In this document: positions 215-2,306 of the stretch, piece after piece
Position numbering within the stretch: the first letter of the stretch is position 1
Layout of the letters: each line of letters opens with the position of its first letter
Origin: a virus
Virus record (IMG/VR): IMGVR_UViG_3300037337_000108
Location: 1 to 36,971 of that record
Strand: one strand, 5' to 3'
DNA length: 36,971 nucleotides
Notes under the pieces: model-generated
The model's database searches: none
Told to the model about the DNA's origin: nothing
The model's input: only the letters and a program-made list of their open reading frames with translations
Made by a program: the position numbers and the translations under genes

Positions 215-234
215 AAAGCCCCTTTCGGGGCTTT
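215..234 (-). terminator. Terminator closing the modification cassette
   Basis: Perfect 8-bp stem AAAGCCCC / GGGGCTTT with a TTTC loop, starting two bases past the stop codon of the formyltransferase gene. T-rich flanks on both sides could let it stop transcription in either direction; the run of T is better on the plus strand. Confidence 0.75.
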
Positions 235-235
235 T

Positions 236-898
236 TTAGCTACTTGCGGAAGCATTACGCTCAATCATCAATAAATCAGGTTTAAAAACATCCTTGACGT
301 CGGTATTAGGCTCAAAGGTGCTAAACTCCTTACGCTGTGGAATCTTCACGATGTTGCCGGCATGGATCTCCCGCAGGGTTCGCTCTATCAACCGCAACCC
401 CATAGCTTGCAACTCATGTTCCCACAGTATCTTTGCCGCCTTCTTTGGGTCAATACCATACAGCTTTGGGTCAATAAAGCAAATCTCCTGGTTAGCAATA
501 TCGCCACGATCTATCCCATTGTTGAGCCAAAACACCGTGCCACCTGTCACCGCATCGCGCATCCGCACCGCCCACTCAATAGACGAGCGTCCACGATGGC
601 GTGGCAACAAACTTGGGTGATAGCCAATCCACCCAAATTTTGCCTTATATCGCGTACGCTTGCCGATATAATCGAATGAATGAGCCGTTATACCTAAATC
701 TACATTATTAGGCATTGTGTCGCCGTTTAGCATTCCCGAAGGCACAATCGGAATTTCAAATATACGTGCTGTTTTACCGATATACTTATCGTCAAGCGCA
801 CAGCAAACACCAACCACTTCAACAAATTCTAAATTATTACACAAGTTCAACACCTGTTCGCCAAAATACTTTTGGCCACTTATAAAAACTCTAATCAT
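236..898 (-). CDS. Formyltransferase-fold enzyme of the modification cassette
   Basis: A 220-aa protein with the formyl_trans_N fold of methionyl-tRNA and GAR formyltransferases, which move a one-carbon unit from 10-formyl-tetrahydrofolate. The core is GWIGYHPSLLPRHRG (residues 89-103) followed by TGGTVFWLNNGIDRGDI (118-134). The catalytic His (H94) and Asp (D130) are present, but the usual Asn two residues before the His is Gly (G92). The C-terminal tRNA-binding domain of Fmt is absent, so initiator tRNA is an unlikely substrate. The start overlaps the acyltransferase stop by 8 nt, so the genes are probably co-translated. DNA here is visibly richer in GC than the tail genes. I infer that it supplies or transfers a one-carbon group in DNA-base modification; the substrate is unknown. 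Confidence 0.8.
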   Translation of the reverse strand: MIRVFISGQKYFGEQVLNLCNNLEFVEVVGVCCALDDKYIGKTARIFEIPIVPSGMLNGDTMPNNVDLGITAHSFDYIGKRTRYKAKFGWIGYHPSLLPRHRGRSSIEWAVRMRDAVTGGTVFWLNNGIDRGDIANQEICFIDPKLYGIDPKKAAKILWEHELQAMGLRLIERTLREIHAGNIVKIPQRKEFSTFEPNTDVKDVFKPDLLMIERNASASS

Positions 899-1319
899 TT
901 CCTAAATATTTAAAACTTTGAACCGCCCTAAAATGGCCACCATAACCGCAACCGGTTACACTCCCTTTTTTACCTGTTTTTACCATACTTGCATTACTTC
1001 TTTTTTTATTCGCGCCATAAAGCATCGCGCCAGTTTGTGTCCATTTTTGAGCGTTTCTCAAATAACCGCACAATTGAGGGTGTGACGTGTGAAAGAACGT
1101 GTGATACTTCCTTTGGCAACGTCCATTGCCCTCCAAGTGATATTGCATCACTTCATTTAAAAACGCCGTTCCAACTCCCGCGCCTTGCCACTCCGGCATA
1201 ACTACCAGTCGTGTCGCTCGATACGCATTTGCAGTAAACATCGGGCAAACCGCAACGTGAGCCACTAACTCACCATTTACCACACCGATAAAATATTCGG
1301 CAGCGGGTGGGTGTTTCAA
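891..1319 (-). CDS. Mom-like GNAT acyltransferase (5'-truncated in this frame)
   Basis: GNAT acyltransferase. The acyl-CoA pyrophosphate loop is RLVVMPEWQGAGVG (residues 37-50), followed by HTSHPQL (77-83), and the protein ends GGHFRAVQSFKYLG. This SHP...W...SF.Y.G pattern is that of acyltransferase domains fused to ABC ATPases (COG2401) and related to Mu Mom, which modifies adenine in phage DNA. TTG at 1319 is the first possible start by rule, but the frame stays open up to 1439. The added residues include KIDIFKVNGSYWKLFKEHYY, the conserved entry of this domain (W..F..HHYL), so real translation must begin upstream, probably by frameshift from the ATPase gene. It overlaps the formyltransferase gene by 8 nt. 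Confidence 0.8.
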   Translation of the reverse strand: MKHPPAAEYFIGVVNGELVAHVAVCPMFTANAYRATRLVVMPEWQGAGVGTAFLNEVMQYHLEGNGRCQRKYHTFFHTSHPQLCGYLRNAQKWTQTGAMLYGANKKRSNASMVKTGKKGSVTGCGYGGHFRAVQSFKYLGND

Positions 1320-1321
1320 AT

Positions 1322-2017
1322 CTAAATAATAATGCTCTTTAAAGAGCTTCCAATAACTTCCGTTGACTTTGAAAATATCAATTTTGATTTCAGGTCGCTT
1401 CCCGATTTCAATTTTTTTTTTAATACTTTGGTGTTTACGTCATACACCCAGTCTGGTTGAAGCCACTCGATAATATCATAATGGCACGATAATAAAACCA
1501 CTTTCTTTCCCTTGTTTTTCCTCCAATTCTTACCGAAGGCCAACGCGCCAACTTTCGCAATTTGTCGATCAATTACAGATGTAAATTCGTCAACCACCAC
1601 TTCATCTGGTGCATCAGAAACTAATCGAGCCAATCCAGCTCTAAACTGCTGACCGTTAGATAATGCATTGAACGGTCGTAGCCAAGAAGGAACATCACCA
1701 AGCCCAACCGATGCCAATGCTCCTGTAGCTTGATTAAAATCTCCAGTCGGCAAAATACAATCCACGATAGGCTTTGACGAATCCCAACCTTCATAAAGAT
1801 TGACTAATCTATCTTTGCCAAAAAATTGGCGCCCTAGCGATGTTTTACCACTTCCCGAAGTACCGACGATTAACCCGATACCCCAATCCATATCATCAAT
1901 CTCAATATTAAATTCCTGTGACCAGTTCGCGCCACTTTCGGCATTGAACAATGACTTTACTCTTTGAGCTCTGTAACTTTCAAACTCTTTACATGAATGA
2001 TTTACGTTAATTATCAT
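1322..2017 (-). CDS. ABC ATPase, COG2401 type, of the modification cassette
   Basis: ABC-class ATPase without membrane segments. Walker A is GTSGSGKT (52-59), the signature LSNGQ (119-123), Walker B VVVDE (140-144) followed by FTSVIDR, and the H-loop SCHYD (His 179). The phrases VVVDEFTSV.DR and SCHYDIIEWLQPDWVYD are characteristic of COG2401, where this ATPase is fused to a GNAT domain. Here frame 0 runs past residue 199 through an A10 tract and stops 30 residues later, while the GNAT sequence continues in -1. The gene starts inside the stop of a 45-aa gene (ATGA). It probably powers or gates DNA access for the acyltransferase; it is not a transporter component. Confidence 0.85.
   Translation of the reverse strand: MIINVNHSCKEFESYRAQRVKSLFNAESGANWSQEFNIEIDDMDWGIGLIVGTSGSGKTSLGRQFFGKDRLVNLYEGWDSSKPIVDCILPTGDFNQATGALASVGLGDVPSWLRPFNALSNGQQFRAGLARLVSDAPDEVVVDEFTSVIDRQIAKVGALAFGKNWRKNKGKKVVLLSCHYDIIEWLQPDWVYDVNTKVLKKKLKSGSDLKSKLIFSKSTEVIGSSLKSIII
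1412..1421 (-). other. A10 slippery tract joining ATPase and acyltransferase frames
   Basis: On the minus strand ten consecutive A follow TTATT... in the ATPase frame TTA AAA AAA AAA TTG. The acyltransferase frame is -1 relative to it (ATT AAA AAA AAA ATT). A AAA AAA is a well-known -1 heptamer, and homopolymers of this length also slip during transcription and replication. A shift here would give one protein of about 375 residues with the ABC-then-GNAT order of COG2401. The last about 30 residues of the ATPase read in frame 0 look like non-conserved filler. Confidence 0.7.
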
Positions 2018-2151
2018 ACTGTTACCACTTTTAACGTTAAACCCTCTTTTTGAAGCTTTTCAAAAATTTCTTTTTGCTCTTCCTCTGATTTACAAATCAC
2101 AATAACGCCGTATTGCTCTTTGTAATTAAAAACTTTCTTTTTAATTTCCAT
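2014..2151 (-). CDS. 45-aa protein at the head of the modification cassette
   Basis: Reads MEIKKKVFNYKEQYGVIVIC then KSEEEQKEIFEKLQKEGL and TLKVVTV. The predicted shape is beta-strand, long amphipathic helix, beta-strand. The stop overlaps the ATPase start (ATGA), so translation is coupled, and the start lies 40 nt after the pseudoknot element. My impression is that small proteins of this form accompany ABC/GNAT loci, but I cannot name a family. A regulatory or subunit role is inferred from position only. Even composition and tight coupling argue that it is real. Confidence 0.7.
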   Translation of the reverse strand: MEIKKKVFNYKEQYGVIVICKSEEEQKEIFEKLQKEGLTLKVVTV

Positions 2152-2190: not shown

Positions 2191-2306
2191 TTCTCACGAT
2201 AATTTATAACATACTAAAGCCACAACATTAGAAGACCTATGTCCTCCAACGCTGTGGCTTTATGCTTAATTAAATTACCGTGAGAAGTTTTTAATTGTTG
2301 GAGGAC
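2191..2306 (-). ncRNA. Pseudoknot-capable leader of the modification cassette
   Basis: Three sets of complementary arms interlock. Arm A: TTCTCACGATAATTTA (2191-2206) pairs with TAAATTACCGTGAGAA (2271-2286), one mismatch in 16. Inside it, arm B: TAAAGCCACA (2215-2224) pairs with TGTGGCTTTA (2253-2262), 10/10. The loop of B holds GTCCTCCAAC (2241-2250), perfectly complementary to GTTGGAGGAC (2297-2306), which lies outside arm A. A nested hairpin whose loop pairs outside is a pseudoknot. Neighbouring genes are on the minus strand, so the RNA probably precedes the 45-aa gene. No U-run follows, so it is not a plain terminator. No known riboswitch or ribozyme class was recognised. Confidence 0.65.

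Follow-up and report, generated by a model that had tools for sequence, protein, structure and literature searches.

According to a prediction by Iyer, Aravind, and colleagues, phage proteins in which an ABC ATPase is joined to a GNAT acyltransferase domain acylate a DNA nucleobase; that of Tenacibaculum phage pT24 is their example, and their account, which cites a 2013 paper of the same group, mentions neither frameshifting nor a formyltransferase (PMC7824862). Frameshifting that yields an ATPase with and without a C-terminal extension is exemplified by dnaX (slippery heptamer A_AAA_AAG; products tau and gamma), and prfB, which encodes RF2, has the site AGGGGG UAU CUU UGA C. It has been reported that orthologues with programmed ribosomal frameshifting share the direction of the shift (PMC3711429). 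Here, we describe an ABC-GNAT gene located in a minus-strand cassette at positions 236-2151 of the Bacteroidota Mu-like phage sequence IMGVR_UViG_3300037337_000108 of IMG/VR (hereafter the window, meaning the whole stretch of 36,971 nucleotides that was analysed). The best explanation of this locus, to which we give a probability of about 0.6, combines programmed recoding with an acyl-modification role. Recoding of the gene into two products, ABC and ABC-GNAT, is very probable in view of the comparisons described below, and the cassette is probably a small enzyme operon for chemically marking DNA.

Results

The ABC ATPase and GNAT Frames Probably Encode One Protein

The minus-strand order of the cassette is a 45-aa open reading frame (ORF), the ABC ATPase ORF, the GNAT frame, and the formyltransferase (Table 1). 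The original prediction had counted these as four genes. All four frames are present, but the GNAT is not a separate gene, because its frame continues upstream without a stop across a run of ten A's (A10) and because relatives encode ABC-GNAT as one protein. What was read as a "GNAT gene" codes for the latter half of an ABC-GNAT protein, and the cassette consists of three genes (the small gene, one frameshifted gene, and the formyltransferase), not four. A −1 shift on A_AAA_AAA links the ABC residues to '...KKIEIGKRPEIKIDIFKVNGSYWKLFKEHYYLD...' in a product of 375 aa, and it was found that this reconstructed protein aligns end to end with in-frame fusions of Gordonia, Pseudomonas, and Porphyromonas phages and others. 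The family phrog_11143 spans both parts, its positions 2-194 matching the ABC ORF and 228-351 matching the GNAT. The coupling of an ABC ATPase to a GNAT, as originally proposed, is that of a recognised phage family with predicted DNA nucleobase acylation (PMC7824862): the family is the same, and pT24 is among the matches (match L163; 42% alignment over the ABC part).

The ABC part contains the Walker A (GTSGSGKTS), signature (LSNGQ), and Walker B (VVVDEF) motifs, and an ABC fold was obtained with AlphaFold and Foldseek for the in-frame relative L082. Foldseek with the whole fusion returned ABC domains only, and the GNAT was therefore modelled alone. The Foldseek matches of the GNAT were SpeG, PaiA, and GCN5, and the typical CoA-binding loop is retained (PEWQGAGVG); the GNAT sequence by itself gave no match in the PDB.

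A Candidate −1 Frameshift Site in the Window's Clade

The site was evaluated in 67 distinct IMG/VR relatives with the −1 relation, 64 of which were scored for the stop codon and 66 for start codons. The in-phase heptamer was AAAAAAA in 50 and AAAAAAG in 17 of these, within A-runs of 6, 7, 9, 10, or 11 nucleotides. There were 9-11 A's in 55/67 and 6-7 A's in twelve, of which eleven have 7 A's and one has nothing beyond A_AAA_AAG as a slip run. The ABC frame ends at one codon position in 64/64, and the GNAT-frame residues encoded across this stop, H-Y-Y-L-(D/K), are conserved in the clade. With random synonymous recoding based on the codon usage of each locus, the same stop and no earlier one would be expected in 5.6/64, a value that, like the other expected counts given below, treats related sequences as independent and is a guide and not a probability.

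In the seven-A members (n = 11), a hairpin starts 5 nt past the heptamer, with 100% of cells paired and three pairs with changes on both sides. The covariation score of this hairpin was 0.44, compared to 0.28 in shuffles and at most 0.10 when it was slid. The pooled clade gave little downstream-structure signal, and the hairpin emerged after the sequences were split by A-run length. This pattern fits a ribosomal slip for which a longer A-run needs less help; polymerase slippage could contribute where the run has at least 9 A's. The locus resembles dnaX in the slip heptamer, in yielding two forms of an ATPase, one of them extended at the C-terminus, and, for the short-run members, in the hairpin. 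It differs in that the frameshift gives the longer product here and the shorter one in dnaX, in that the ATPase folds are different, and in that the window's gene is a phage gene. The relative L082/L003, which is ~99% identical to the window over the ABC protein, has eleven A's and ABC-GNAT in frame, and is either a naturally occurring form that does without the frameshift or the result of a homopolymer error.

An RF2-like Junction in the In-Frame Relatives

The homologous junction was analysed in 173 distinct in-frame fusions from viruses and from bacterial genomes of Pseudomonadota, Planctomycetota, Verrucomicrobiota, Chloroflexota, Acidobacteriota, and others, with slip codons assigned by alignment and expected motif counts obtained from codon usage. 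It was found that this junction reads NGG(A/G)GG-NNN-CTT-(C/T)GG-C, with CTT present in 147/173 fusions (22.7 expected) and the full NGGRGG-NNN-CTT motif in 122 (1.1 expected). The hexamer is retained whether it encodes Arg-Gly or Gly-Arg, which argues for selection on the nucleotides. The +1 frame is open for ~27 codons, and in 173/173 its stop falls on the same HYYL codon (75 expected); this stop is TAG, TGA, or TAA depending on the local codons.

These in-frame relatives share with prfB the Shine-Dalgarno (SD)-like hexamer, the 3-nt spacing, and the CUU slip codon. In prfB, a stop follows and the shift completes the protein, whereas in the relatives a slow sense codon (CGG, CGA, TGG, AGG) follows and the shift shortens the protein. 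The A-site codons of the fusions were CGG, CGA, TGG, CAA, or AGG, with no stop there, and because a sense codon replaces the A-site stop, we class the junction as RF2-like and not RF2-identical. The in-frame members from Bacteroidota retain CTT and the stop and lack the SD-like hexamer, which we infer reflects weak Shine-Dalgarno use in that phylum. Taken together, one gene appears to make ABC and ABC-GNAT through opposite recoding in different lineages.

Distribution among Phages

In phages of Lactococcus (P335), Streptococcus (Javan141 and Javan523), Oenococcus (Vinitor-27), and Thomasclavelia (TR-TP1), the ABC frame ends at this codon too, and the GNAT lies in the −1 frame. In-frame fusions were found in phages of Pasteurella (Pmp13), Leptospira (LE4), Rhodococcus (Jace), and Pseudoalteromonas (SL25), together with the +1 stop, the SD-like hexamer, and either CTT or GTT as the slip codon. 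An alternative-frame stop at one codon seems, from these alignments, to extend from Bacteroidota to Actinobacteria, Firmicutes, and Spirochaete phages. On a tree of the ABC part, the labels "in frame" and "−1" take 4 changes, compared to 54 in shuffles.

Gordonia phage BiggityBass (genes 1-3) and Pseudomonas phage Komp_PAO1_1 (CDS 29-31) have the same gene order as the window, i.e., the small module (fused to ParB in BiggityBass), ABC-GNAT, and the formyltransferase. Both differ from the window in having an in-frame fusion, with the SD-like sequence AAGGAG-NNN-CTT in the former and TGGGGG-NNN followed by CAT in place of CTT in the latter. In the record of Thomasclavelia phage TR-TP1 (L328, 1297-2693), the ABC and the acetyltransferase are annotated separately, and the ABC frame stops at an HHYL codon.

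Evaluation of Alternative Explanations

Several observations count against the favoured explanation. The window's own site has no clear downstream stimulator, and the members with 9-10 A's gave a mean z of just −0.5 to −0.9 for downstream structure. In the in-frame relatives, the slow sense codon stands where prfB has a stop, so the efficiency of the +1 shift may be low, and the ABC-GNAT gene of Aeromonas phage PX29 (L335, 1339-2517) has no CTT site and no stop in the alternative frame, so that recoding appears to have been lost there. The treatment of related sequences as independent in the expected counts belongs here as well. Lastly, the formyltransferase was not found in distant phages that keep ParB-ABC-GNAT; because these have no formyltransferase, one-carbon chemistry is best read as an add-on and not as the core, with the formyltransferase peripheral.

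One alternative is that ABC and GNAT are distinct genes with coupled translation: the GNAT ORF as listed begins with a TTG right past the ABC stop, and coupling is described as common for ABC transporter gene pairs (PMC3711429). However, the protein started at this TTG lacks the first strand of the GNAT domain and the invariant residues R and H-x-Y-L, which are encoded upstream of it. Because the GNAT frame has no ATG upstream of the HYYL motif in 62/66 relatives, and no ATG, GTG, or TTG in 43/66, separate initiation is unlikely; with the slip heptamer in phase in 67/67, we regard two coupled genes as highly improbable. A sequencing error or a decaying gene could be suspected from the error-prone ten-A homopolymer, from the near-identical, in-frame L082/L003 with eleven A's, and from L104 and L131, which resemble single indels, but the recurrence of the −1 relation across 67 distinct sequences, whose A-runs measure 6, 7, 9, 10, or 11, the stop fixed at one codon, and the conservation of the GNAT leave this explanation almost no weight. 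Runs of 9-11 A's (55/67) are long enough for polymerase slippage, and no hairpin was found in those, so the fusion might arise by transcriptional slippage, or the A-run might be a phase-variation switch, instead of a ribosomal slip. We consider this unlikely, though it deserves some weight, given that eleven of the twelve members with 6-7 A's have the covarying hairpin at ribosomal spacing, that 17 members end in AAAAAAG in phase, and that the relatives use an RF2-like ribosomal signal. For the in-frame clade, the +1 stop might be an "ambush" stop for accidental frameshifts or might reflect protein constraint, since such a stop can come from codon choice alone (97/173 expected at that Leu). 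Ambush selection favours early stops, whereas 173/173 have none before this codon (131 expected), and the excess of the NGGRGG-NNN-CTT motif (122 compared to 1.1 expected) and the hexamer kept for either Arg-Gly or Gly-Arg likewise speak against both ideas, which we consider very unlikely.

The Formyltransferase Resembles a Dehydrogenase Domain

The score of the formyltransferase for Formyl_trans_N was 60 bits, relative to a Pfam cut-off of 26, and the NCBIfam equivalogs for PurN, Fmt, and ArnA were all far below their curated cut-offs. In a profile search, the closest solved relatives were hydrolase domains of 10-formyl-tetrahydrofolate (10-formyl-THF) dehydrogenase, with 4qpd as the best match (E = 2e-39). 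It was found that the catalytic residues His94 and Asp130 are invariant in 96/96 formyltransferases and that the catalytic Asn, which is used by PurN, Fmt, and ArnA, is missing in 96/96, with Gly, Ile, or Val instead; the dehydrogenase hydrolase domain has Ile at this position in the profile alignment. The protein is similar to the ALDH1L1 hydrolase domain in the common YHPSLLPRHRG motif, the retention of His and Asp, the loss of Asn, and the best profile match. It differs as a 220-aa single domain without the acyl-carrier and aldehyde dehydrogenase domains of ALDH1L1. The hydrolase domain of 10-formyl-THF dehydrogenase transfers a formyl group to a phosphopantetheine thiol, and for this reason one may reasonably guess that the GNAT receives formyl from a donor linked to CoA or to a carrier. 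In L162 and other Porphyromonas phage records, the formyltransferase is ~160 aa, with the N-terminal half shortened.

The 45-aa Protein Corresponds to a ParB C-Terminal Module

The 45-aa ORF and the ABC start overlap by 4 nt. The 45-aa protein matches the last 40 residues of ParB-like proteins encoded upstream of ABC in many relatives, such as BiggityBass gene 1, and a hidden Markov model of this module detected it in Streptococcus, Lactococcus, Oenococcus, and Rhodococcus phages, where it forms the C-terminal end of ParB_N proteins. Because the module ends ParB_N proteins in relatives, the core partnership is, by this comparison, ParB_N with the module, ABC, and GNAT, the ParB domain having been lost in the window's lineage. 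A Com-like role of the 45-aa protein was rejected, as it matches phrog_28816 and the ParB C-terminal module, and Com is phrog_13819. The module is annotated "acr candidate" in L162 and other Porphyromonas phage records.

On an Acinetobacter baumannii plasmid (L323, 1827-3485), a ParB_N protein overlaps a GNAT-less ABC ATPase by 4 nt, with a thioredoxin next, and matches like this ABC are present in about 890 plasmid records, many of which are probably phage-plasmids. The pairing of ParB_N with a GNAT-less ABC in Acinetobacter phage-like plasmids suggests that ABC without GNAT can be a working unit.

Cassette Neighbourhood and Leader RNA

The window contains a Mu-like element, with a MuA-type transposase (phrog_310), a MuB-type ATPase (phrog_296), terminase, portal, sheath, and tape measure all present, and the cassette is placed after the tail genes at the end of the late region, as had been proposed. 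In a survey of 320 relatives having both ABC and GNAT, the small module was present in 305 and the formyltransferase in 268. The original prediction depended on conserved linkage of these genes among homologues, and in the window's subfamily the formyltransferase is indeed linked, adjoining ABC-GNAT in 173/199 loci with at least 1.5 kb of downstream sequence. The association of the cassette genes is not due to chance. Loci without a nearby formyltransferase mostly had no common replacement gene; in two of them the downstream gene resembles a small terminase subunit, judged by eye. PADLOC gave weak ABC matches and nothing else.

Table 1. Features of the cassette and its flanks in the window.
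Feature	Position	Strand	Evidence or remarks
45-aa protein, stand-alone copy of C-terminal module of ParB_N proteins	2014..2151	-	phrog_28816 E=8e-14
ABC ATPase, zero-frame product, 231 aa	1322..2017	-	phrog_11143 residues 2-194, E=2e-83
Slippery heptamer A_AAA_AAA, last seven of ten A's (1421-1412)	1412..1418	-	in phase in 67/67 distinct relatives with −1 relation
Zero-frame stop TAG	1322..1324	-	built from codons for conserved H-Y-Y-L-D of GNAT frame
GNAT domain, −1 frame	891..1412	-	Acetyltransf_1/7 above cut-off; AlphaFold pLDDT 85
Transframe product ABC-GNAT, 375 aa, −1 frame from 1412	891..2017	-	reconstructed
Formyltransferase, 220 aa	236..898	-	Formyl_trans_N E=2.5e-16; phrog_9240 E=5e-43
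Leader hairpin, two-part stem, core GGAGGAC-AUAG-GUCUUCU	2191..2286	-	38 base pairs in window; ~96 nt
GTCCTCCAAC, complement of hairpin's GTTGGAGGAC	2297..2306	-	possible alternative pairing partner
Hairpin after operon, terminator-like	215..234	-	stem 8 pairs, weak T tail on minus strand; from scan

Both flanks named in the original prediction, a structured leader and a terminator, have their counterparts in the window (Table 1). The leader is located between the upstream gene and the 45-aa gene, and the upstream region folds at −62 kcal/mol. The fold persists in ~40 relatives (e.g., L083, L085, L098, and L117) despite changing sequence, with the core GGAGGAC...GUCUUC conserved, and the hairpin was absent in L087, L091, and L096. 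Because the G-U pairs in the leader (190) far exceed the A-C mismatches (11), it appears to be kept as a sense-strand RNA. A complement of GGAGGAC (CCTCC) is found upstream, and in most of the 43 relatives compared CTCC/CCCCC precedes the hairpin by ~5-22 nt; it is possible that the leader switches between two pairings. No Rfam match was obtained for the leader or the window. The hairpin on the other flank is a GC hairpin directly after the last gene, with a better T run on the plus strand. It is possibly bidirectional and may also stop transcription from the host side.

Discussion

In the open literature searched, neither −1 nor +1 recoding of ABC-GNAT is described, and DNA acylation by ABC-GNAT is already predicted (PMC7824862). 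This gene is not mentioned in the passages retrieved from a frame-transition survey, a recoding review, and the PRFect paper.

We propose a model in which ribosomes that stay in frame would end after the ABC ATPase and a −1 slip at A_AAA_AAA would yield ABC-GNAT. Dimers of the ABC subunit would be loaded onto DNA together with the ParB-type module, and the slip would determine the number of subunits with a GNAT, much as the ratio of tau to gamma is determined in dnaX. A CoA thioester would then serve as the acyl donor of the GNAT and an amine, most probably that of a DNA base, as the acceptor, and the formyltransferase would supply or cap this acyl group with formyl from 10-formyl-THF. It might do so by charging a phosphopantetheine thiol, like the dehydrogenase domain, or by adding formyl to an aminoacyl group once this has been transferred, in the way that PurN and Fmt formylate their amine substrates. 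Formyl as a part of the final group is a tentative and rather unlikely element of this model.

Whether the acyl group is placed on DNA is, in our estimate, an even call. The ParB_N partner, the terminase genes near the locus in several phages, and the published DNA prediction (PMC7824862) fit a DNA target. The Foldseek neighbours of the GNAT are, on the other hand, polyamine and protein acetyltransferases, and Formyl_trans_N enzymes act on tRNA, sugars, and peptides, such that modification of a protein, tRNA, or small molecule by the operon is a serious competing possibility, to which we give somewhat less than an even chance. Mu com-mom, with which the cassette had been compared, has a similar late-end position in a Mu-like phage and a GNAT-fold acyltransferase, but there is no detectable sequence relation, and the cassette lacks Com and has an additional ABC and formyltransferase. 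The proposed kinship with Mom was abandoned, as hhalign of Mu Mom with the GNAT gave a probability of 0.1% and the two belong to different PHROGs (1384 and 11143, respectively); the typical CoA-binding loop of the GNAT also speaks against it.

A wider proposal, which we regard as speculative and more probably wrong than right, is that this enzyme family kept both products across many phyla while recoding switched at least 2 times between an RF2-like +1 and a −1 shift, and that the frameshift fixes the number of acyltransferase arms on a ParB-linked ABC complex, which together with a dehydrogenase-type formyltransferase would write an undescribed formylated or formyl-derived DNA base.

For annotation, the "separate GNAT" or "hypothetical" genes of many phages are corrected to one protein. 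The homologues, which seemingly reach the same two products via opposite shifts, are a natural experiment on the evolution of recoding, and a stop held at one codon is a strong reason to think that the ABC-only form is needed. If the prediction of DNA modification is true, these phages would encode a writer that is regulated and composed of several subunits and would provide a way to a base that may be new.

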